Part shown: positions 33,300 to 45,442 of the stretch, piece after piece
Layout: every line of letters begins with the position of its first letter
Position numbering within the stretch: the stretch's first letter is position 1
NCBI RefSeq assembly: GCF_944324525.1
Contig: NZ_CALUWS010000019.1
Coordinates: 1 to 50,470 of the forward strand
Length of the DNA stretch: 50,470 nt
Source: an uncultured Desulfovibrio sp.
GTDB lineage: Bacteria; Desulfobacterota; Desulfovibrionia; Desulfovibrionales; Desulfovibrionaceae
Reading direction: 5' to 3'
Notes under the pieces: generated by a model
Told to the model about the DNA's origin: nothing
Database searches by the model: none
The model's input: the letters and a program-made list of their open reading frames with translations, nothing else
Program-made: the position numbers and the translations under genes

Positions 33300-33597
33300 C
33301 GTTTCGGGAGCGCACACGCTGGGCTATCAATGGCATCAGCTGGAAGAAGGCAGCCGGGTACGAGAACATCCCACACGCAAGCACGGCAGCAAGCCTGACC
33401 TGTATTTTGCCATCCGCTGTCAGAAGGACGGCAAGCGGCAGGGAGAGTCTCTGGACTGGACATCGCAGGGCATGACCCTGCACAAGGCCCGTCTGGCGCT
33501 GGCTCAGCTTCGGGAAGCGGCGCGCACCGGCAATGGAGCCACGCGACTCCGGGAACAGCGGCAGAAAGGGGCTTGTGCACTTCTGCCGGAGCAATGA
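33300..33597 (+). pseudogene. N-terminal relic of a tyrosine integrase
   Basis: A frame here reads GSRVREHPTRKHGSKPDLYF, then CQKDGKRQGESLDWTSQGMT and LAQLREAARTGNGATRLREQ, which is the arm-type DNA-binding start of tyrosine integrases as I know them from Desulfovibrio elements. The beginning (TTFRERTRWAINGI) may lie in another frame, and nothing of the catalytic domain follows. The relic lies beside the type I restriction genes and the TGGGGACAAAATGGGGACAA direct repeat at 33280-33299, possibly part of an attachment or arm site. It marks a former integration event. Confidence 0.65.
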
Positions 33598-34583: not shown

Positions 34584-35528
34584 ATGCCGAGCAAATATGA
34601 TCAGGACAGCACGCCGGGCGTCAAACTGTTGCGGCTGTTCCGCAAGCTGCTGGCGGACGGCAGGCGGCACTACCAGAGCGATCTGGCTGCCGAATTCCAG
34701 TGTTCGCCACAAACCATCATGCGGCTGACCGCGGAAATAGAAAGCGTCATCGGCGCCAATCTGGAAACGGGGCTGGACTGCCGCCGGCGCTGGTACCGCA
34801 TTGCCAGCAGCCATCCCAACCGCCTGGGATTGGAGTATGAGGAGCTGCGCTATCTGGCCGTCTGTCGGGACCTGGCGATGCCCGCCCTGCCGGAACCGGT
34901 ACGCCGCCGCGTGGATGAGACGCTCCTCCAGCTTTCGCTGCATATGGCCGAACAGGGATTTTCCGATCAGCCGGATGTGCGGGAGCCGCGCTTCGGCTTT
35001 TATTCCAAGGGACGCATCGACTACACGCCGCATCAGGAAACGCTGGAGCAGCTTCTTTGTGCCATACGGAATCATGGCGTGTGCCGCCTGCTCTATAAAG
35101 CGTCGGGCAACAAGGCGAGCAAGGAGCATCTCTTTGCGCCGGGCAGGCTCGTCAGCATGAACCTGACCATATATGTGCTGGGGGCGCTGCTGACGGAGGA
35201 GGGGGCGGAGGTCCGGCACTACACGCATCTGGCTGTTCATCGCATACAGGAGATTTCCCGAACCAAGCTTGTCTACAGCGGGACGTTCCCGGACGCCGAG
35301 CAGGGGACGTTCGGCCTGCCGTGGCATGAACCGAGGGAATTCCATATCCGCTTCAAGGCCGGAAGAGCGGCGGATTATGTCTGTGAGCGCATCTGGGCGG
35401 ACAGGCAGACCATCGAGACGCAGCCGGACGGAAGCGTCATCCTGCACATCACCACCCGCAGCGAGCCGGAACTCATGGCCTGGGTACGGAGCTTCGGGGA
35501 GGAAGCTTGTCTGCTTGGCAGGGAGTAG
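34584..35528 (+). CDS. WYL-domain transcriptional regulator
   Basis: A 314-residue regulator. An N-terminal winged helix-turn-helix (about 12-70, QSDLAAEFQCSPQTIMRLTA) is followed by a WYL-type ligand-binding domain (about 150-235, with VCRLLYKASG and LFAPGRLVSMNLTIYVLGAL) and a C-terminal WCX-type extension (about 245-310). The literal W-Y-L triplet is degenerate (TIYVLG). WYL regulators are frequent in defence islands and can sense nucleic acids or second messengers. It stands alone on the plus strand, so its targets (the restriction operon, or the three-gene operon at 36.8-40.1 kb) are a guess. An AAGGAGAAGC site supports the start. Confidence 0.8.
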   Translation: MPSKYDQDSTPGVKLLRLFRKLLADGRRHYQSDLAAEFQCSPQTIMRLTAEIESVIGANLETGLDCRRRWYRIASSHPNRLGLEYEELRYLAVCRDLAMPALPEPVRRRVDETLLQLSLHMAEQGFSDQPDVREPRFGFYSKGRIDYTPHQETLEQLLCAIRNHGVCRLLYKASGNKASKEHLFAPGRLVSMNLTIYVLGALLTEEGAEVRHYTHLAVHRIQEISRTKLVYSGTFPDAEQGTFGLPWHEPREFHIRFKAGRAADYVCERIWADRQTIETQPDGSVILHITTRSEPELMAWVRSFGEEACLLGRE

Positions 35529-35733: not shown

Positions 35734-36453
35734 ATGTTCGGAAACCGACTGATTCATCTTGGCGGGGCGGTCTGCCTTGTCCTTGTCCTGCTTGGCGCAC
35801 ACGTCCCCGCGCGAGCGGCAAGCAAAACGACCTGCCCGGAAAAGGTCATTGACGTCCAGACCGTCACGGGAACGTATCTGGGCTGGTTCGAGACGGAGGA
35901 AGGGCTCAATACCATCGGCATTCAGGTTCCCGGTGAAACGGAACCCGTGTATATCGGCGCATCGGAAGAAGAAGCCAGAAAATTTTTCGGCAATGGTACG
36001 GGGCAGCGGGTGTCCGTCACCTGGCAGGTGGAGCAGATGTGGATAGACGAAACACGGGAATGTCTGCGTCTGGAAATCCTGAAGGAAGGCCATCCGCTCG
36101 ACGCAGCGGAACAAGGCTCCGCTGTGAAGGTGATCCCCGGACAATACAAGTACATGAGCACCCATGAAGATGCCTCGGGTGAGTTGCGGCTTTCCGCCCC
36201 GGATCCATCGGGAAAGTTTGCCGTTACCATCGAAACGATAAGCCCGCAACTGCATACCTGCGGCTTCAGCGGGTTCTGTACCCTCAAGGATGATATGCTG
36301 ATCTGCCGAAACGCGCCGGAATACGACGATGCAGAGAATCCTGATGCCTACGTCGGCATCAAGGTTTTGCAGAGCGGTCTTGAGATCGTGCATGGAAGCT
36401 ACGGCTGGTGTGGCGCAAAAGGATCAATGGTAGGCATCTATATGCTGAAATAG
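35734..36453 (+). CDS. Exported protein of unknown function
   Basis: A 239-residue protein with a signal peptide (LGGAVCLVLVLLGAHVPARA, cleavage near residue 28). The mature domain has strands suggesting a beta-barrel or OB-like N-terminal part (VIDVQTVTGTYLGWFETEEG, VSVTWQVEQMWIDETRECLR) and four cysteines in the second half that could pair. I recognise no named family. It has its own AACGGAGGAAACC site and no close neighbour on its strand. GC content is slightly below the window average. Confidence 0.6.
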   Translation: MFGNRLIHLGGAVCLVLVLLGAHVPARAASKTTCPEKVIDVQTVTGTYLGWFETEEGLNTIGIQVPGETEPVYIGASEEEARKFFGNGTGQRVSVTWQVEQMWIDETRECLRLEILKEGHPLDAAEQGSAVKVIPGQYKYMSTHEDASGELRLSAPDPSGKFAVTIETISPQLHTCGFSGFCTLKDDMLICRNAPEYDDAENPDAYVGIKVLQSGLEIVHGSYGWCGAKGSMVGIYMLK

Positions 36454-36778: not shown

Positions 36779-37501
36779 TCACGCCTTCTCCGGGTATTTT
36801 TCACAAATTTCATCCAAGGCGTCTTCATAAAGCTCTTCATTGTTTTTGTAGAGCTCAATCAGATTGGGAATCACTTCAGAAAGATAATTTCTAAAGAGGC
36901 GTATGCATATTTCTCCCACTGTCGCCATTTCACAAAACAAGGAATTATTTGCTTGTGACTTCATTGTAAAATCACATCCGCTACGTTCATATCCTCCCGG
37001 CTCCGCCAATTCGCGAAATGTGGAAAACGTTGCGTGTTCGTCAATTCCATCATCAAAAAATAAAAATTTCTTTTTATTTTTCGCAGTGAGACAGAAAATG
37101 CCTTCAGCAGTAATGATTACTTGTTCGCGGTCTCCATTAAGGAAGTCTGGATTTGCAATCAAGACAGTAACAAGGAGCTCATTTGTTGGTTCATCAGTAC
37201 ACACCCGATTACCCCACCAAAGTCCGTCTCCATTCTGATGCTCCAGGCTAGGATTGTAAATATGCTGCGTTCTAAACGTTGTGCTTGGAATACGATACCA
37301 CCAAAGTGCGCCGGCGCCGGGGTACGAAAATTCAGAAAATGCTTTTGTATTGCAAGAGCAAATACCATATTGGGGTTGTTTTCTCCCACTCTCATATCCA
37401 GCTTCCAACGTATCGCCATATTTTTCCACAGAGTAAGGAAATGAAAATTTTTCCCGGCATACATCATACACCATTTTCCGCCATTTGTTGTAGCTTTCCA
37501 T
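36779..37501 (-). CDS. Unknown protein, third gene of three-gene island operon
   Basis: A 240-residue soluble protein without signal peptide or membrane segment. It is acidic and aromatic-rich (GALWWYRIPSTTF, GDGLWWGNRVCTDEP, LFFDDGIDEHATFSTFRELA) and ends in a helical acidic tail (NEELYEDALDEICEKYPE). I recognise no family. Its ATG shares one base with the stop of the upstream gene (TAATG), so synthesis is coupled. Its codon and base use is clearly richer in A+T than the rest of the window, indicating transfer. By position it may be an immunity, chaperone or adaptor partner of the two Gly/Ala-rich proteins; that is inference. Confidence 0.65.
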   Translation of the reverse strand: MESYNKWRKMVYDVCREKFSFPYSVEKYGDTLEAGYESGRKQPQYGICSCNTKAFSEFSYPGAGALWWYRIPSTTFRTQHIYNPSLEHQNGDGLWWGNRVCTDEPTNELLVTVLIANPDFLNGDREQVIITAEGIFCLTAKNKKKFLFFDDGIDEHATFSTFRELAEPGGYERSGCDFTMKSQANNSLFCEMATVGEICIRLFRNYLSEVIPNLIELYKNNEELYEDALDEICEKYPEKA

Positions 37502-38475
37502 TACTCTTCTCCCAATTTGCTGTTTATATCCGATTCAAGCTCGGAAAGTCCCAGCTTTGCGGTTTCGCAAAGCCTACCTTCATCGTCCACGATGGTTATC
37601 CCGGCAAAGGCGTTTATCAGATCGCATACGGAACATGCGCGATACAGCTTTTCCTGCGTATCCAGGCCGGAGTTCTTGAGATCAGCACCGCGCAAATCCT
37701 GAATGGAGGGCAGCAGCTCCCGGGCGATTCCGTCAAGTCGGGCCAGAATCCTTTGGGAAAGTGCGGCCAGCCGGGCAATTTCCCTGAGCCGCTCATTTAT
37801 GACTTCGAATTCCTTTTCTTTCACCCGCATTTTTTCAAGTTCGCTCATCGCCTCGGCGCAAAGCGTTTCGGACTTTGCCCCAAGCGAGATGCCGGTGATA
37901 AGAAGCGCGGGGAGGGCAATCAGGCCCGTGAGGGCCAATGCGCCTCCGGCCATCCCCAATCCTCCCGCCGCCAGTGTGCCGCCGCCGAGCCATGCCAAGG
38001 TGGCGTTTACCGCCGCCGCTCCGGAGAGAGAGCTTATGGCGGTTCCTGTTCCCGCTGTTCCCAGCAGCCCCGCCAGCGAATAGGCGCCAAAGCTTACCAG
38101 CGCTCCCGTTACGCCCCCCGCCGCCAGCCCCGTGGCCGTGCCACAGGCTATTGCGCTTGCCGTATCGCAGGCTTTTTCACATACCGCGGACGGCCTGATG
38201 GATGGTAACTGTTCTTTAGTCCCCTTGAATTCAACAGTTGCCCCCTCGGGTATTTGCAAGGCCTGCAGGGCATTGAGGAGCTGAGTGTACGTCCCCCCGT
38301 CCTTCTTGAACGTATCCCGTTTGAGCTTTCCCAGCTTGCGGAGCGCGACTCTGGCTTTTTCCCGTTCACCTGCACAGGCGCCCTCAATGGCACGCTGATA
38401 GTGCGGCAGACGCTCCGCTATCTTGCTTGCTTGTTGTATATTATCATAAATCGTGAATGGATTGAGCGTAACCAT
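37501..38475 (-). CDS. Unknown protein with long glycine-zipper hydrophobic region
   Basis: A 324-residue protein. Residues 1-100 are mainly helical and basic; 105-200 form a long Gly/Ala-rich hydrophobic stretch (GTATGLAAGGVTGALVSFGA, LAWLGGGTLAAGGLGMAGGA, LTGLIALPALLITGISLGA) of the kind that inserts in or oligomerises at membranes. Residues 205-260 look coiled (AMSELEKMRVKEKEFEVINE), with an acidic C-terminus. I know similar zipper regions from uncharacterised proteins of mobile islands, but no function. It starts 6 bases after the stop of the 513-residue gene, with a GAGGG site. A pore-forming or membrane-disrupting effector is a fair hypothesis, not shown. Confidence 0.65.
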   Translation of the reverse strand: MVTLNPFTIYDNIQQASKIAERLPHYQRAIEGACAGEREKARVALRKLGKLKRDTFKKDGGTYTQLLNALQALQIPEGATVEFKGTKEQLPSIRPSAVCEKACDTASAIACGTATGLAAGGVTGALVSFGAYSLAGLLGTAGTGTAISSLSGAAAVNATLAWLGGGTLAAGGLGMAGGALALTGLIALPALLITGISLGAKSETLCAEAMSELEKMRVKEKEFEVINERLREIARLAALSQRILARLDGIARELLPSIQDLRGADLKNSGLDTQEKLYRACSVCDLINAFAGITIVDDEGRLCETAKLGLSELESDINSKLGEE

Positions 38476-38481
38476 ATTCCC

Positions 38482-40131
38482 TCACAAAGAGTCGAGCATT
38501 GCCCTGAACGCGGAAAAACTTTCATACCGCAATTTCGTATTGAGCGTCTTTGCCATCTGTTGCGCACCTTTTTCAAATTCTTCAAGGGAAGAATTTCGCT
38601 CCATCATTTCAAGGGCTTCATTGCTCTCCTGTTCTATTTTTGCAAAATAGTTTTCAAACGTGGTGAAAAGCTCAAATCTGTACTCCTCCCACTTGCGGCA
38701 GGCAGCACGTGCTCTGGCACGGGTTTCCTCATATCGCTCCCTGGCTGCCCGCGCTTTCCTGATGGCAAAAATGCTTTCGGTAAAGCATAGCGAACTCAGC
38801 GCACAGGCAATGGTCGCTCCCACGACGGCTCCCACCACGGGAACAGGCAAGAGTATCTGCCCCGCAGTTCCGCCCCAAACCCCGGCCAGAGCGGCAACAC
38901 CTTTTTGCCCCAGTTCTTCCACCGCAGCGCCCGCATCGATCTCGCCTGCCGCCAATCGCGACAGCGTTTTTGCCACATCTACCGTAGCAGATGCGATCAT
39001 TCCCGGCAGAGCGGTCCCGGCAAGGGAGCGCAGCACGGCTTTATCCGATTGCTGCATGGCCCCCTTTGCCACGCTTCCCACCGCCGCCCCTGCATATCCC
39101 ATCAGTGCGGATTTTCCGGCATCTGCGGCTATGCCGGCTATGGCATCTTCAAACTCGATATTGCCTCTGTACACCTGCAGCAAATGGAGACCTGTCGAGA
39201 CCGCCGCGCCGGCGACCAGCCCCGCGCAAGCGCCCTGCTTGCCCGCCTCATGGGCCACACGTCCCATTTCCAGAGCTGTTGCGAGTTCAGGATGCTCTCG
39301 CAGGAAGAGGGCATCCTCCGTGGTCATGCCGCTGTCGCGTATGTTTTTTTCCAGAGCATCAAAATTGTCCGCTTGCGCCCTGCATTTTTCCGCTTGTTCC
39401 GCCAGTCCCTTTTCTTCCAGCCGATCCGCTTTGATACGGAAATGGCGGCTTTGTTGTCGGCAATGCTCCTTTCCGCACTCCACCTGCTCACTGGGAAGGT
39501 CAAGCGGGATGCCTTGATAACGGGAAAAATCGTTCCTGCCCCCACCTTCCCCAAGTGCGATTTTATTCAGCAGGTTCTTGTAGTTCCCAACAAATTTCAT
39601 TTGTGAGCCGGAATTTCCTACTACCTGCCCTCCACGAAGTTCGATGTGGTCGAAACGCTGATCATTATGCGGAAATCCGGGGGCATCATCCGTCCTCATG
39701 CTCCGTCTGGCACGCCCATCAATAATATTTCGCGCATTATCCCGGCTTACTTTATTGACTTCTGCGGAGAATCCCGCCTGCTGCTTGATATTCTGCTCTG
39801 CATAATCAGGGTTGACCCTGGAATTTGCAATATCTTTCAATCCCTTGAATCTACGAAGTGTTTGCTGATCGAATCCGGTGTACCCCTTGACGAATTCCGC
39901 ATTTGCCGAACCATAGCGATCAACAATCTCCGCATTCTCGACAAGAGTCGCTGCAGTGCGAATTTTTTCGCAGTCGCCCTTGATGCTGTCATGTTCATCA
40001 TTACACATATGACACACCGCCAATTCATGACCGGTCTTTATCGACCATCAATCCGGGATCTGGGCCGCCAAGAACTCAGGGGAAAGTATGCTGGTCAAAC
40101 CCACCGTGTTCAGGAGTTTCCAGGCAGCCAT
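38482..40131 (-). CDS. Unknown large protein, first gene of operon, in-frame TGA at codon 28
   Basis: The open part (from 40047) gives a protein of about 520 residues. Near its start is a Cys/His cluster (CHMCNDEHDSIKGDC) that could bind zinc. Next comes a conserved-looking region (EFVKGYTGFDQQTLRRFKGL, NPDYAEQNIKQQAGFSAEVN, QRFDHIELRGGQVVGNSGSQ), a helical Cys/His-containing part, a Gly/Ala-rich hydrophobic region (about 260-415 counted from 40023), and a coiled coil. Upstream and in the same frame, an ATG at 40131 opens MAAWKLLNTVGLTSILSPEF and LAAQIPD, then TGA (40048-40050), then WSIKTGHELAVC. No good start with a ribosome site exists after the TGA, so the gene was probably longer and is now interrupted, or TGA is read through. 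No family name can be given; an effector-like architecture is plausible. Confidence 0.6.
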
Positions 40132-40395
40132 TCTTCAAAATTTCCCACCCTGCGAGGCATGACAATCAGGCGAGACAGGAATCACCCGTGTGCTTGAGAA
40201 CACAATTCAACCTCTTGTATCAATTAAGATTCTAGCGATTTTTTCACTTGGTGGAAAGTACGTAAAATTGATGCAACTGATGCTGTACGGCAGAACATCA
40301 GCACGACAATCAAAAAAAATTTGTTGTGCTGAAGTGGGTATAGCGGGCACTTACCCTCCGCCCACCTATCTCATACATACTCTTTAGTGATTTTT
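40132..40395 (-). promoter_or_regulatory. Control region of the three-gene operon
   Basis: An AT-rich 260-base region upstream of the operon. It includes an inverted pair CTGATG / CATCAG (about 40279-40304) and A/T runs, consistent with a promoter firing leftward. No exact promoter boxes are assigned. Confidence 0.35.
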
Positions 40396-40996
40396 ATGTC
40401 AATAATTGATTTTTATGCTGTTTTTTTTGAGGGGAAGTTCTCATGTACCCTTTTCCACCAGGAAAGGAGGACAGCAATATCCCGAAGCAAAGTACGACCC
40501 AGGATTCACCAGACGGGCACGACGTGGCGGCCGGCATTCCTCCCCGGCACAAGGCTGAAAGGCTGTCCGCCTGCCTCGGCAGCAGAAAGCCTGTCGGCCT
40601 GCACGGTATTCACAGCACAAGGACATCGTCGTTCTCCAGCATGGCGTCGCATCCTTTTTCGGTGGCATCACTCCTTCCACGGGCAAGGTCCACGGCACAT
40701 CGTCAGTAGCGCAGCCCGTCCCTTTGCATCCCAGTGTAGACGCGCAATGCTCCATAATCCGGAAACGTCAAAAAAATTTTTTCAGGGGATGGTTCCGCAT
40801 CAGCAACTCCCCCCCGCACAGCAGGCCGGATAACGAAGCGGCATACAAAACGCCCCCTTTCCGCACGGAACGGAAAGGGGGCGTTTCAGTTGGAAAAACA
40901 GTGGTCGACTATTTCCAGGGATATACAAGATCAGAGCAGACCCTGCCGGGCAGCCTCAGTCCAGACAAATGGGGAATATTTCTTGAGAAACCCCTC
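40396..40996. repeat. Duplicated unit, copy A (XRE gene deleted, HNH gene kept)
   Basis: This stretch matches 46982-47955: a leader with ATGTCAATAATTG, TTTTTATGCTGTTTTTT, GTACCCTTTTCCA and AGGAAAGGAGGACAG, then the trailer (CACAAGGACATCGTCGTTCT, GACGCGCAATGCTCCATAAT), the hairpin, and the last codons of the HNH gene. In this copy the leader's ribosome site at 40460-40474 joins directly to AATATCCCG of the trailer. The whole XRE coding region present in copy B (about 47058-47438) is missing. Confidence 0.85.
40849..40886. terminator. Strong bidirectional terminator, copy A
   Basis: A 15-base-pair stem AACGCCCCCTTTCCG / CGGAAAGGGGGCGTT with a 7-base loop, T's on one side and A's on the other. 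Ends the HNH gene transcript from the right. The same hairpin is at 47808-47844. Confidence 0.85.
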
Positions 40997-41530
40997 TGTT
41001 ACCTCCCCTTCGCAATAGAACTGGTAATGCTTGGCACGCATTTCGTTATGGGCAGGACTATCCAGTTTCAGCCGGTCTATGCTTGCCTGAATCTTTTGTT
41101 GCAGAGAGGCAGGCAACTGCGGGTTGGGAAAAATATGCCCGCTTACAAGTTCCAGATAAAACCAACCATCCTCGATTTCAAAAGGATCGAGAATATCCGT
41201 GAAGTCCCTTTTGCGGCTGTTTATTGCGGAACAGGCCAGACGGTAATTGCGCCATTCGTACGCAAGATCAGGGCGCAAAGACTTGGGGAGAAAATGCTCT
41301 ACGTGTCCAGTCCCTGTAGTTCTTTCAAAGAAAACGGCAAGATAGGCGCAAACTCCGTCATAGTTATGATACAGTTCATCTAGACAGGCCCGCCAGTAGG
41401 GAGGCAGTTCCGTCCCTGACGGCAGGGGAGCTGTGATGTCGATATGATGTTTCTCCAGCCAGCGCAGACCCTTTTGGCGAACTTGTGTATCGAAATCTTT
41501 CGGTTCTGGCTGCGGTATCACCGGAATCAT
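40931..41530 (-). CDS. HNH endonuclease-like protein (Septu PtuB-like)
   Basis: A 199-residue protein with an HNH-type core: YDGVCAYLAVFF (about 57-68), GHVEHFLPKSLRPDLAYEW (75-93), NYRLACSAINSRK (95-107), then DILDPFEIEDGWFYLELV. His-76, His-79 and the NxxK region fit the nuclease centre; the usual CxxC is reduced to CAYL, so the structural zinc may be absent. Partnership with the ATPase upstream is the arrangement of Septu (PtuA-PtuB) phage defence. The ATG at 41530 overlaps the ATPase stop as ATGA; a GTG at 41539 is less likely. The last 21 codons are duplicated at 47890-47955. Confidence 0.75.
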   Translation of the reverse strand: MIPVIPQPEPKDFDTQVRQKGLRWLEKHHIDITAPLPSGTELPPYWRACLDELYHNYDGVCAYLAVFFERTTGTGHVEHFLPKSLRPDLAYEWRNYRLACSAINSRKRDFTDILDPFEIEDGWFYLELVSGHIFPNPQLPASLQQKIQASIDRLKLDSPAHNEMRAKHYQFYCEGEVTEGFLKKYSPFVWTEAARQGLL

Positions 41531-42804
41531 GCCAGCCACCCCTTTTTTCCCGCCACAAAGCGCCAGCGGATCCAGAAAGGATCGGTGTCTGAAAGCACGC
41601 CGCGTAATTGCTGATCCAGCTTTTGCGCATCTTCCGGGCCGAAGCTTTCATTGCTCAATGCCTGTGTGGCCTCTTCCAGAACCTTTTCCGCTTCCCGAGG
41701 ATAGCCGGACGGCAAATCAAAGGCTTCGCTGGTAAGCCAGTTGGAGACATTCCCCTGCCGCAGGAAGGGCCGCTGCGTCAGGAGGACTTTGCCGTCGTTG
41801 AGATCGAGGTCGAACCAGGCATCCTTCGCCGCATCGAACAGGGTTTCCACAGAGGCCATGATCAGCGGCGAATGCGTTGCAACGATGAGCTGCATTTCCC
41901 TGTCGGGACGTAACGTCTCCATGACCTGCATCAGGGCCGGTATGACCGTGCGCTGCCACTTGGGATGCAGATGCGCCTCCGCTTCATCTATCAGAAATAC
42001 CGCCCGGCTTTCCGGCTCTTCCCCCGTCAATTCCCGGGCTTTCAAATGTTCCTCCCAGCACCAGACAAGAAAATAGGCCAGCGAAATGATGCGACGCATA
42101 CCGGAAGACGCATGCAGCACGGGGACTTCCTGCCCATACGGCATACGCAGCGTCGGCATATCCCGCGCATCGTCAAGGCTGATGCGCGTCAATTTGCCGG
42201 GAACAAGTTTTTCCTCCCCGGAAGGCGACAGCACCGCAAGCACCGCCTCCAACGACGAAAAGGCTTGCCCCTTTTCCTTTTGCCAGCCTGCCCAGTCCCG
42301 GATCAGGCCGTTGCAGAGCCATGCGCCGTCCGAATTTTCAAGTCCGTTCCAGACTTCCTCAGGACTGAAAACATACGCCGGAGGACGCGCTTTTCCCTCC
42401 TCCCGCTTCGACTTCCAGTAATTGCGTGCCGGGTCCCATACCGCGAAACTGCCGTCCGCCATAGCGTAGAAAATCAGACCGGGATTGGCGGGACCCGCCT
42501 TTATGGGCCATTCCTGTTCGCGGGGCTTGAACGTGCTTTCGCTTTCTATGGGTTTGGATGCGGCGGAAAAACGGGCCTTGATAGTTGCCGGTTGTTTTTT
42601 GTCTGTGGGCAGGGCTGTCTTGCCTGCGGTCAGATGCGGATTGACCTCGGCCGGCCAGGTGCGTGTCATGGCCCACCAGAGAATATCGAGGAGAAAACTT
42701 TTTCCTAGTCCGTTGTCTCCGGTCAGCAGATTCAAGCGGCTGCCAAAGTCCAGCTCCATGCCGGGGACCGGTCCCACATTGGCTATGCCAAGATGCATTA
42801 TCAT
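41527..42804 (-). CDS. AAA/ABC-type ATPase (Septu PtuA-like)
   Basis: A 425-residue ATPase of the AAA_15/AAA_21, OLD-like group. It starts with IANVGPVPGMELDFGSRLNL and Walker A TGDNGLGKSFLLD (28-40). Later come VLHASSGMRRIISLAYFLVW (signature-like), Walker B AVFLIDEAEAHLHPKWQ and the switch His in LIVATHSPLIMAS. Such ATPases sense invading DNA or phage proteins and control a partner nuclease. It has an AAAGGAG site and is coupled to the HNH gene by the ATGA overlap. A Septu-like defence pair is the best reading; other ATPase-nuclease systems (retron Ec78-like without the RT) share this pair, and no reverse transcriptase is present here. Confidence 0.8.
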   Translation of the reverse strand: MIMHLGIANVGPVPGMELDFGSRLNLLTGDNGLGKSFLLDILWWAMTRTWPAEVNPHLTAGKTALPTDKKQPATIKARFSAASKPIESESTFKPREQEWPIKAGPANPGLIFYAMADGSFAVWDPARNYWKSKREEGKARPPAYVFSPEEVWNGLENSDGAWLCNGLIRDWAGWQKEKGQAFSSLEAVLAVLSPSGEEKLVPGKLTRISLDDARDMPTLRMPYGQEVPVLHASSGMRRIISLAYFLVWCWEEHLKARELTGEEPESRAVFLIDEAEAHLHPKWQRTVIPALMQVMETLRPDREMQLIVATHSPLIMASVETLFDAAKDAWFDLDLNDGKVLLTQRPFLRQGNVSNWLTSEAFDLPSGYPREAEKVLEEATQALSNESFGPEDAQKLDQQLRGVLSDTDPFWIRWRFVAGKKGWLA

Positions 42805-43008
42805 GGCGGAAGCTCCTTTTCTTTCACATATCTGCCTTGGCGCACCGGAGACGCCGGGCCAGCGGGAATGCATTGCCGACGATTCTGCCCAGCGGGGCCT
42901 CCCGGAGTTCTATGTCCTTTTTTGAGAAATTTATCCAGCCCTTGCCCGCCGTACTGTTTCGGCGAGAAGCCCACCCCCCGATCAAGCAGCGAAGAGCGTC
43001 AACAGGCC

Positions 43009-43611
43009 CTAAAAAAGCGTATAAATAAAGGGGGCGATGACCGACGTCTGGGCGAAGAACAGCAGCACGCCAAGGGACAGCAGCAAAATGAGCAGCGGCA
43101 GGAGGAACCATTGTCCATGACGGGCAAAGTGCTGCAACACCTGGACGAGCGTCGCCAGCAGGCCTCTTCCGTTCGCGCCATCCTGCACGAGGGTGCGGGT
43201 CCGCTTGGGCTGCCAGCCGCAGATCCGGCCCGCTCCATCCTCCCAACGGACTGCCGGAACGTCGCTCCCGGCATGCGTCAACCGGGCCAGCGGGGTCAGC
43301 AGAACAAGATAGATGCAGGCCAGCAGAGCCGAAAAGACAAGATGCCCGAACTTGCCCATGACGCGCTGAAACAGGGCCGCCGGTCCGGCAAGGCACAAGG
43401 GACAGGCAATGCCCGCCAGCAGGATGAGCGCCCCGCCGAAACAGAACGTCAGATAGAATCCGTCGGAGTGCGTTTCCCCGATGAAATAGCCGAACCAGCC
43501 GTACAGCCCGGCGGCCGTGCCGATGATCTGGCCGAAGGCCGCGCTGCGGCGGACATCTTCCCGGAACAGGCGCATCCTGAGCGCCTGCATGTAAGCGTTT
43601 GAGCTAGTCAA
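43009..43611 (-). CDS. SxtJ-like / DUF5989 fusion membrane protein
   Basis: A 200-residue protein. The N-terminal part has hydrophobic helices (FGQIIGTAAGLYGWFGYFIG, YLTFCFGGALILLAGIA, LVFSALLACIYLVLLTPLA) like the SxtJ family. The C-terminal 55 residues (LLATLVQVLQHFARHGQWFL, LPLLILLLSLGVLLFFAQ, then SVIAPFIYTLF) match the small DUF5989 protein that is usually a separate gene beside carbamoyltransferases. The start is a TTG at 43611 supported by GAGGAGG at 7 bases; the ATG at 43590 has no ribosome site. It overlaps the carbamoyltransferase gene by 8 bases. Function unknown; probably a membrane partner of that enzyme. Confidence 0.7.
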   Translation of the reverse strand: MTSSNAYMQALRMRLFREDVRRSAAFGQIIGTAAGLYGWFGYFIGETHSDGFYLTFCFGGALILLAGIACPLCLAGPAALFQRVMGKFGHLVFSALLACIYLVLLTPLARLTHAGSDVPAVRWEDGAGRICGWQPKRTRTLVQDGANGRGLLATLVQVLQHFARHGQWFLLPLLILLLSLGVLLFFAQTSVIAPFIYTLF

Positions 43612-45442
43612 GGCGAAACCTCCTCATCCAGTCGGCCCGTTCTTCGGGGCTCATCTCGCCGCAGCGCTGTTCTTCCCTCAGCAGCAGGCGATTGCCTACC
43701 ACCAGCGCATCCATTTCCGTGACCATGAAGCAGCGGTAGGCATCCTCGCAGGTGCAGACGATGGGCTCGCTGCGCACATTGAAGGAGGTGTTGATGATGA
43801 CGGGGCAGCCGGTGCGCTCCATGAAGCGGGAAAGCACCTTGTGCATGAAGGGATTGCGCTCCGCATCGATGGTTTGCAGCCGGGCCGAGTAGTCCACATG
43901 CGTCACGGCGGGGATCTCCGAACGGGGCACCTTGAGCAGGTCAATGCCCCAGAGCTGTCGTTCCTCTTCGCCCGGCTCTATCCGACGGTCTTCCCGTACC
44001 GGCGAGACCAGCAGCATATAGGGGCTCTCCTGCGTGGTCTCAAACCATTCGTCGCGGTATTCGTTCAGCACCATTGGCGCAAAGGGGCGAAAGCTTTCTC
44101 TGAACTTTATCTTCAGATTCATGTGCTCCTGCATTTTCGGGCTGCGGGCGTCGCCGAGAATGGAGCGGGCCCCCAGCGCTCTCGGCCCCCATTCCATGCG
44201 CCCGCGCGCCAGCCCCACGATGCGTCCTTCCGCGATCAGCTCCGCAATGCGTTCGGCCAGCGCCTCTTCGTCCAGTTCGGTCCATACAGCGCCAAGCTGC
44301 CGCAAGAGGGCATCATCTTCCGCATCGACGGGGCGGATGGCCGGGCCGAGGAAGGAACCCTGCATACTGTCGCCGGGCTGGGCCCGGCGGGTTTGCCCCT
44401 GCACCATGTGCCAGTGCCAGTAGGCCGCCCCCAGCGCGCCCCCGGCATCCCCGGAGGCCGGCTGCACCCAGATGCGGTCAAAGATCTTCCGCCGGGCCAG
44501 CAGACCGCAGGCCACCACGTTGAGCGCAACGCCCCCCGCCATGACCAGATGCCGCATGCCGGAAATGTCGCGGGCATGAGCGGCGGCCGCCAGTACGGCT
44601 TCCTCCGTCACCGCCTGGATGCTGGCGGCAATGTCCATCTCCCGCTGGGTGATCAGGCTTTCGGGCTTGCGGGGCGGGCCGTCGAACAATTCCTCAAAGG
44701 CGGGCGAGGTCATGGTCAGCCCGCCGATGAAGTTGAAATATTTTTGATTCAGCGTAAGGGCTCCCTTCTCGTCGATGTGCGCTATCTCGTCGAGGATGCG
44801 CTGCCTGTAGAGAGGTTTGCCGTAGGGAGCCAGGCCCATGAGCTTGTATTCCCCGCTGTTGATCTTGAATCCCGTGAAATAGGTGAAGGCAGAGTAGAGC
44901 AGGCCCAGCGAATTGGGGAAGCGCTGCTCTTCCCGCAGCTCGATATGATTGCCCTGTCCCACGCCGATGGTGGATGTGGCCCATTCCCCAACCCCGTCAA
45001 GGGTCAGGATGGCGGCCTCCTCGAAAGGCGAGGGAAAGAAGGCGCTGGCCGCGTGCGACAGATGGTGCTCGCAGAACTGGATGGGGCGCTCGATCCCCAT
45101 TTCACGGCACATTTCCCGTTCCAGCCAGAGATTGCGCGACAGCCATTTGGGCATGGCCCGGAGAAAGAACGGCAGCCCGCGGGGCGCGGCATACAGCTGG
45201 CTCTGCATCAACCGGTCGAACTTCTCGAGGACATTCTCGTAAAAAACGATGTTGTCGACGTCGTCAAGGCGAATGCCGGCCTCGGCAAGGCAATAGGCAA
45301 TGGCGTGATGGGGAAAGGAAGCGTCCCCCTTGATGCGCGTGAACCGTTCTTCCTGCGCGGCGGCAACGATCCGCCCATCCCGCAGCAGCGCGGCGGCGGC
45401 GTCATGATAGTAGGCGGAAATACCCAGGACCGTGGAACTCAT
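43604..45442 (-). CDS. NodU/CmcH-family O-carbamoyltransferase
   Basis: A 612-residue enzyme. The N-terminal kinase-like domain begins VLGISAYYHDAAAALLRDG with the conserved His-Asp pair, then AAQEERFTRIKGD, CEHHLSHAASAFFPSPF and LTLDGVGEWATSTIG. The C-terminal carbamoyl-transfer domain has GRMEWGPRALGARSILGD and VIINTSFNVRSEPIV. It makes carbamoyl-AMP from carbamoyl phosphate and ATP and passes it to a hydroxyl group. With an SGNH protein upstream (ATGA overlap) and the SxtJ/DUF5989 protein downstream, the target is probably a surface polysaccharide or lipid-linked sugar; this is from gene context seen in many genomes. Confidence 0.9.
   Translation of the reverse strand: MSSTVLGISAYYHDAAAALLRDGRIVAAAQEERFTRIKGDASFPHHAIAYCLAEAGIRLDDVDNIVFYENVLEKFDRLMQSQLYAAPRGLPFFLRAMPKWLSRNLWLEREMCREMGIERPIQFCEHHLSHAASAFFPSPFEEAAILTLDGVGEWATSTIGVGQGNHIELREEQRFPNSLGLLYSAFTYFTGFKINSGEYKLMGLAPYGKPLYRQRILDEIAHIDEKGALTLNQKYFNFIGGLTMTSPAFEELFDGPPRKPESLITQREMDIAASIQAVTEEAVLAAAAHARDISGMRHLVMAGGVALNVVACGLLARRKIFDRIWVQPASGDAGGALGAAYWHWHMVQGQTRRAQPGDSMQGSFLGPAIRPVDAEDDALLRQLGAVWTELDEEALAERIAELIAEGRIVGLARGRMEWGPRALGARSILGDARSPKMQEHMNLKIKFRESFRPFAPMVLNEYRDEWFETTQESPYMLLVSPVREDRRIEPGEEERQLWGIDLLKVPRSEIPAVTHVDYSARLQTIDAERNPFMHKVLSRFMERTGCPVIINTSFNVRSEPIVCTCEDAYRCFMVTEMDALVVGNRLLLREEQRCGEMSPEERADWMRRFRLD

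Follow-up and report, generated by a model that had tools for sequence, protein, structure and literature searches.

What is the function of the three tightly packed minus-strand genes that adjoin a Septu system in the genome of an uncultured Desulfovibrio sp.? The genes lie on contig NZ_CALUWS010000019.1, whose 50,470 bases, out of a genome of 2.9 Mb, are covered completely by the stretch of DNA analysed here (the window). In an initial annotation they had been put forward as a candidate for an undescribed system, in which a membrane-acting pair would operate together with a partner protein. We suggest that genes 1 and 2 probably encode a membrane-tethered nuclease and a membrane scaffold, which would together serve anti-phage defence. 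The block consists of the following genes:

38482..40023, minus strand: gene 1, M09B-like, 513 amino acids (aa), TTG start (open reading frame, ORF; PADLOC PDC-M09B)
37501..38475, minus strand: gene 2, M09A, predicted membrane scaffold, 324 aa (ORF; PADLOC PDC-M09A)
36779..37501, minus strand: gene 3, orphan acidic protein, translationally coupled, 240 aa (ORF; no credible homologue)

The reading frames bear out the coupling of the three genes as it had been described, with 6 bases between genes 1 and 2 and a TAATG overlap of genes 2 and 3. The block had also been called AT-rich. Its guanine plus cytosine (GC) content is indeed lower (gene 1, 0.537; gene 2, 0.573; gene 3, 0.414; third-position GC of 0.545, 0.615 and 0.382, respectively) than that of outer genes such as the carbamoyltransferase gene (0.627) and an HsdM-like gene (0.641), but the deviation is uneven, being far stronger in gene 3, and is matched in the adjoining region 40001-42000 (0.507 and 0.536).

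PADLOC assigns gene 2 to PDC-M09A (E-values of 1.1e-25, to PDLC04407, and 1.9e-24) and gene 1 to PDC-M09B (1.1e-10 and 1.4e-10), taken by E-value rather than by PADLOC's own score cut-offs and system rule. The window contains an M09A-type and an M09B-type protein, adjacent and on one strand, and these sequence matches place the pair in the PDC-M09 candidate family, as a divergent member, so that it is already catalogued. To this extent the pair is not an undescribed system; yet for neither PDC-M09 nor PDC-M40, a second candidate family considered below, did literature text searches (the preprint of Payne et al. 2024 lying outside them) return a function, the nuclease reading included. Pfam and NCBIfam gave nothing usable for any of the three proteins. 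PDC is expanded as phage defence candidate in PMC11514479 and as putative defence candidate in PMC12988326, where PDCs are described as unvalidated and as derived from a guilt-by-embedding study (Payne et al. 2024, preprint), from which we infer that PDC-M09 itself originates.

The evidence for a nuclease lies ahead of the hydrophobic zone of gene 1 and is new relative to the initial annotation:

39496..39810, minus strand: predicted nuclease core of gene 1, residues 72-176 (invariant E88, D125 and Q141-x-K143; secondary structure of the model)

In an alignment of 58 proteins, made up of the window protein and those of 57 of 61 loci (L096, L113, L115 and L116 were omitted as partial or distant), residues N78, Q81, G84, F85, A87, E88, D125, Q141, K143 and Y169 are invariant in all 58 rows. 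The structural model of gene 1 has a mean predicted local distance difference test score (pLDDT) of 83 and a predicted template modelling score of 0.69, with block means of 85-98 at residues 31-240 and of 48-59 at residues 381-420. DSSP assigns helix (H) and strand (E) to it as H72-101, E106-110, E126-130, E140-142, H148-157 and E174-176, and the model places E88 in the first helix, D125 just ahead of the second strand and Q141-x-K143 in and after the third. The PD-(D/E)XK fold is built in the order alpha-beta-beta-beta-alpha-beta and carries E, D and (D/E/Q)xK at canonical places; the gene 1 core shows the same order when the model is read by eye against this topology. Because E88, D125, Q141 and K143 are invariant and the model has this core order, we recognise a PD-(D/E)XK signature and predict for the N-terminal domain of gene 1 a nuclease of this type, presumably an active one. 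A different feature of the N-terminus, the CHMC...H...C cluster at residues 4-17, had been put forward earlier and is rejected as a metal-binding site, as the four other proteins that align from the start codon all lack cysteines at these positions; at residue 6 there is an in-frame ATG, and the larger gene 1 alignment, trimmed at match ends, is uninformative for residues 4-17.

The C-terminal domain of gene 1 and the Gly/Ala-rich zone of gene 2 are of predicted membrane type:

38749..39318, minus strand: Gly/Ala-rich membrane-type domain of gene 1, residues 236-425 (profile comparison; model confidence low at about residues 381-420)

Long hydrophobic zones had been described in both proteins, and they are located as stated, with Kyte-Doolittle peaks above 1.2 (19-residue window) at residues 264, 330 and 390 of gene 1 and at residues 109, 125, 180 and 278 of gene 2. 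The coiled coil proposed for gene 1 has its counterpart in a long coiled-coil-like helix at residues 395-475 of the model. In the model of gene 2 (mean pLDDT 69) long helices at residues 6-56 and 198-259 flank a Gly/Ala-rich zone at 109-192, which the model leaves unresolved. Judged by hydrophobicity, both proteins would be placed at the membrane.

How widely is the pair conserved? Gene 1 has matches in 8 of 297 genomes of the class, the host counted, among them weak matches with internal stops in G066 and G068 and a short fragment with a stop in G165; gene 2 has matches in 6 of 61 genomes, made up of the host and relatives. Full-length relatives of gene 1 occur in G161 (40%) and on an Azospirillum ramasamyi plasmid (43% over 96%). 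Among 84,980 species genomes, gene 1 alone as query matched 19 stretches and no relative, and a five-protein gene 1 alignment as query led to 60 loci (101 stretches matched the pattern) and also to one viral contig. A gene 1 ORF of more than 380 aa is present at 60 of 61 loci. Gene 2 lies within three genes of it at 55 of 60 loci and is on the same strand in all 55, the two genes being adjacent in 25, separated by one gene in 27 and by two genes in 1, and reversed in 2. Some of these loci are near-duplicates (L089 and L114 are 96% identical, L099 and L118 97%, L093 and L098 91%, and four more pairs exceed 80%). The record titles name Proteobacteria, Desulfobacterota, Campylobacter, Spirochaetes, Firmicutes, Bacteroidetes, Bifidobacterium and Lentisphaeria/Kiritimatiellae, at least seven phyla as assigned from record names, some of which are labels of metagenome-assembled genomes (MAGs). 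One such MAG (L091) is labelled Cyanobacteria and equals two Treponema MAGs (L089, L114) in cassette order and in ORF lengths (541, 178 and 258 aa); an error in its label or in the binning is possible. Among viral contigs gene 2 as query matched 79 stretches, none of them a relative, and on plasmids it found nothing. A gene 1 relative from Enterobacter had no match in 5,426 E. coli genomes, compared at the DNA level only.

Gene 2 was not found in L115, L116 and a Ruminococcus albus plasmid, where a large ORF precedes gene 1; on the plasmid it encodes a HerA/DUF87-type ATPase (1.8e-11) and is itself preceded by the gene for a 543-aa protein without assigned function. L051:4124-10311, L115 and L116 make up a branch of gene 1 relatives for which gene 2 was not detected; here the gene 1 protein is possibly coupled in an alternative way.

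But is gene 2 always paired with a protein like gene 1? At ten Desulfovibrionales loci its neighbour is a protein of 492-557 aa other than a close gene 1 relative; no such partner was noticed beside gene 2 at L013, L015, L018, L057 and L058. The domains of these partners were compared with those of gene 1 by profile and scored against 87 control proteins, the best of which reached 24.5 for the N-domain and 19.0 for the C-domain. Partners of the L012 type (L012, L014, L053, L054 and L055) keep E, D and QxK in five out of five cases and have N-domain scores of 31.9-46.0, above all controls; their C-terminal parts, at 13.4-18.1, do not match the gene 1 C-domain. No match of this type was found on plasmids. 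The C-domain of gene 1 recurs in the partners at L029, L030 and L052 (145.4, 145.0 and 75.8), of which the L052 protein is the prototype PDC-M09B (1.6e-147); its N-domain scores 29.9 against gene 1, more than any control, but the matching stretch, with QSK in place, is short. The L029-type N-domain also aligns a D and a QAK, but with scores of 23.8 (L029) and 20.7 (L030), below the best control, it was rejected as a nuclease homologue.

A further type of partner is HNH-like and is carried by L016, L017 and L056 as well as by the annotated plasmid loci L124 (found by tblastn with L056) and L125. By profile neither half of it is detectably related to gene 1. All three of these proteins tested (L016, L056 and L125) match PDC-M40B (6.6e-37 to 1.7e-50), and that of L056 matches the PHROG endonuclease VII family (2.6e-4). 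For the adjacent gene 2 homologues, all four cases tested (L125, L124, L056 and L016) gave a match to PDC-M09A (7.1e-13 to 7.1e-32). Of 72,556 plasmid records 70 carry the HNH-like type, and Klebsiella accounts for 39 of these. The gene order is M09A, HNH-like, YkgJ on Duffyella pEM01 and WYL, HNH-like, YkgJ, M09A on a Clostridioides plasmid. We read gene 2 as a membrane scaffold that carries interchangeable nucleases. Two observations on individual loci may be added. Of the 20 rows listed for plasmid HNH-like partners (e.g. L124:5965-7542), 17 bear the annotation (ATP--)cob(I)alamin adenosyltransferase, and Pfam sees no cobalamin adenosyltransferase domain in L016 or L056. At L014:4595-7230 (G016) the scaffold and nuclease-type pair lies on the strand opposite to flanking genes that read by eye like phage structural genes, as if the pair were carried like prophage cargo.

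The pairs are often accompanied by genes for TerB, YkgJ-type and WYL proteins. Between gene 1 and gene 2, 27 of 29 genes fall into one cluster, and Pfam TerB is matched (E<=0.01) by 15 of 27 middle-slot-type proteins, a set made up of 24 of those 29, one from L054 and two encoded ahead of gene 1. Same-strand genes that follow gene 2 within 100 bases cluster in 29 of 35 cases, and Pfam CxxCxxCC is found in 27 of 31 genes after gene 2 (L060, L091, L092 and L095 omitted). Before gene 1, 18 of 33 same-strand genes form a cluster, four members of which match by blastp the WYL gene of the window:

34584..35528, plus strand: helix-turn-helix WYL regulator (Pfam WCX 5.8e-11, WYL 6.4e-5)

This gene is 31-61% identical to WYL genes near the cassettes at L012, L016, L027/L059, L029, L030, L050, L053, L054, L056 and L060, ten loci that belong to Desulfovibrionales and Azospirillum. 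It is likely the regulator of the module, and stands here on the far side of the block and in convergent orientation. At L059 (Halodesulfovibrio) the cassette comprises WYL, M09B, a TerB-slot gene and M09A. Fusions of WYL domains to restriction endonuclease, HNH and TerB domains are described in PMC4012209. To the eye, a single ORF at L055:6224-7621 looks like a YkgJ-type CxxCxxCC protein joined to the scaffold of gene 2, and this fusion hints at joint action of both parts. After M09A, proteins of the next slot share a C-terminal domain that occurs after the YkgJ part, alone, or after zinc ribbons (L073, L076-L079, L070, L074, L089, L091 and L114), and that reads by eye as small and beta-rich (PH-like).

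Gene 3 behaves differently from its two neighbours. Its product is acidic, as had been noted, with a net charge of -12 and no hydrophobic peak. It has no match in Pfam, NCBIfam or PADLOC, none among phages, plasmids and viral contigs, none but itself in 297 genomes of the class, and none in the 40 genomes searched for it among those with gene 1 relatives (40 of 61 loci covered). In 395 genomes of the phylum five matches were obtained at E<=0.01, namely gene 3 itself and four partial ones that we take as chance (E-values of 9.4e-4 or worse over 55-79 residues, with internal stops in three). Since no credible homologue stands beside the pair in any genome searched, gene 3 is rejected as a conserved partner; of the trio that had been proposed for a survey as a unit, genes 1 and 2 are conserved as a pair but gene 3 is not part of it. 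The weak top rows of a phmmer search included four proteins of the post-gene-2 slot and one of the middle slot (E 0.4-3), and gene 3 was accordingly considered as a diverged post-gene-2 accessory and rejected, with profile scores of -2.0 to 4.2 bits and an hhalign score of 17.3 that was exceeded by 1 of 60 shuffles. Gene 3 probably is a recent passenger that became coupled and remains outside the conserved module, or else substitutes locally for the YkgJ-type subunit in whose slot it lies.

How might genes 1 and 2 act? The reading that we favour builds on the conserved pairing, the invariant E-D-QxK set, the core topology of the model, the exchange of nucleases between loci, and hydrophobicity. 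The gene 1 nuclease would be fused to a Gly/Ala-rich domain sitting in or on the inner membrane, and gene 2, as a helical membrane protein, would hold it there, away from the chromosome. Upon phage infection the complex would be released or positioned, its putative trigger acting perhaps, in other loci, via TerB, YkgJ or WYL accessories that sense a ligand or metal, and DNA would be cut at the membrane, be it the entering phage genome, as for SNIPE (see below), or all cellular DNA. Beyond the window, it is conceivable, and in our estimate nearly an even matter, that PDC-M09, PDC-M40 and further partner types form one modular immune family. Its members would share the M09A scaffold and the WYL/TerB/YkgJ accessories, into which at least PD-(D/E)XK nucleases with two kinds of membrane tail and HNH-like ones would be plugged, and would tell self from non-self by membrane location and not by DNA sequence.

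Several results weigh against a membrane-tethered anti-phage nuclease. Two fold searches with the whole gene 1 model returned no solved nuclease, their lists being filled by helical parts and none of the hits significant, and a search with the gene 1 sequence profile gave no solved protein that is meaningfully related, its best row being a coiled-coil subunit of ATP synthase (0.0011). For the HNH-like partners, no Pfam HNH family was detected in L016 and L056. The membrane parts are the least confident regions in the models of both genes. The N-terminus of gene 2 in the window is not hydrophobic (best 15-residue mean -0.01), whereas among the 46 of 55 homologues that were compared the value is at least 1.69 in 44 and 1.05 and 1.19 in the other two. 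Profiles of the accessory clusters detected no TerB or YkgJ-type gene or remnant in the window. The window cassette may thus be a reduced one, with gene 2 devoid of its usual hydrophobic N-terminus and no TerB or YkgJ gene found.

Further points against it concern the distribution of the genes and their neighbours. Gene 1 is rare on plasmids (2 of 72,556 records), the Enterobacter relative of gene 1 matched none of 50,697 phage records, and of 14 control genomes one, that of Sulfolobus acidocaldarius, was likewise matched by the M09A model. Among the 87 nearest large neighbours at 51 of 61 loci (L088 and L092 were omitted for want of a suitable ORF, L100 for want of a called gene 1, L115 and L116 as a different branch, and L091, L107, L114, L118 and L119 as near-duplicates or cut contigs) the picture is mixed: each of the 25 PADLOC families shown, of 60 in total at E<=1e-15, occurs in one or two members, and many of the Pfam names are housekeeping. 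With neighbours so mixed and no control set, a family-wide enrichment in defence islands was rejected as an argument and is not used as support. Finally, literature text searches found no published experiment on the PDC-M09 family.

Could the pair act on the membrane itself? As an abortive pore-forming pair, genes 1 and 2 would depolarise the infected cell by inserting into its membrane, and the nuclease-like domain would be a degenerate sensor or DNA-binding switch. We regard this as unlikely. Another membrane activity is suggested by Eleos, a defence system, and by the dynamin-like LeoABC: the pair might be the membrane part of an Eleos/LeoBC-like membrane-remodelling system that has lost its GTPase. 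LeoBC is matched by 4 of 9 M09A relatives scanned (L052 excluded; E<=0.001, best 1.3e-7) and LeoB by 4 of 58 M09B proteins (best 2.4e-8), and the paddle of LeoA is glycine-rich and hydrophobic according to PMC4159319. However, these matches are weak and fall in and around Gly/Ala-rich stretches of biased composition, genes 1 and 2 of the window have no Leo match in the PADLOC scan, no dynamin GTPase domain was detected in the ten window proteins scanned, and the nuclease signature would be left unexplained, so that we consider such an origin improbable. Equally doubtful is a contact-dependent or secreted inter-bacterial toxin with gene 1 as nuclease toxin, gene 2 as translocator and gene 3 (or TerB/YkgJ) as immunity protein. 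In its favour, polymorphic toxins habitually swap nuclease domains, and some immunity proteins resemble gene 3 in being small, acidic and coupled. Against it, the accessories stay constant across nuclease types (YkgJ and WYL accompany both PD-(D/E)XK and HNH-like partners, with both accessories at L056 and L125 and YkgJ at L124), and Pfam recognises neither a secretion nor a delivery domain in either protein of the pair.

The immediate surroundings of the block contain further genes of interest:

41527-42873: Septu PtuA (PADLOC model positions 1-422 of 424 covered)
40931-41539: Septu PtuB (PADLOC model positions 1-192 of 198 covered)
33382..33570, plus strand: tyrosine-integrase-like N-terminal fragment (63 residues, with 54% identity to the beginning of an L053 integrase-like ORF that was named by eye)

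By its near full model coverage the Septu system beside the block looks complete, which does not fit the earlier view that the block lies between relics of other defence genes. The proposal of a membrane-acting pair in a defence island is supported in part: the same-strand pair is conserved, is a PADLOC candidate and adjoins Septu. The other flank carries three ORFs named by eye, one of them HsdM-like (881 aa), one resembling HsdS (489 aa) and one resembling HsdR (1,030 aa). By its resemblance to an ORF near the L053 cassette, the integrase-like fragment hints at carriage by an integrative element. A protein of 239 aa, with a signal peptide apparent by eye and no Pfam match, is encoded at positions 35734-36453 (plus strand), between gene 3 and the WYL gene. 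Beside Septu, positions 43009-45442 (minus strand) hold a two-gene unit, in which the carbamoyltransferase gene is followed by an overlapping one whose 200-aa product ends in DUF5989.

How does the pair compare with known systems? Septu (PtuAB), its direct neighbour in the window, has no family in common with it by our scans and is a separate system. With Eleos and LeoABC it shares the weak LeoB and LeoBC profile matches of some relatives in the glycine-rich part, but the block contains no GTPase and genes 1 and 2 themselves do not match. With PDC-M09 the agreement is closest, as both genes match, adjacent and on the same strand; different from the prototype-like L052, where A precedes B, the order in the window is B then A, and the N-domain of the window M09B only weakly resembles that of the prototype. 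PDC-M40 is alike in that M40B is paired with a PDC-M09A-matching protein and has YkgJ neighbours, and WYL at L056 and L125, and unlike in that its predicted nuclease is HNH-like instead of PD-(D/E)XK and in that gene 1 has no M40B match at E<=1. The common scaffold predicts one mode of action for PDC-M09 and PDC-M40, both of which are catalogued without a function found, and the invariant E-D-QxK set defines the residues to mutate.

The most instructive comparison is with SNIPE (2026), described in PMC13190303 as a membrane-bound GIY-YIG nuclease that by its place at the membrane tells phage DNA from the cell's own by location. That a nuclease is held at the inner membrane via a hydrophobic part is shown for SNIPE and predicted here, and the anchoring parts are variable in both. 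The predicted nuclease fold is another one, however, and two proteins are involved here as opposed to one. Neither GIY-YIG nor DUF4041 is found in gene 1 by Pfam at E<=1, which excludes membership in SNIPE; the likeness is one of layout. If our reading is true, the pair would belong to a second, SNIPE-unrelated and modular family that discriminates by membrane location and is present in at least seven phyla.

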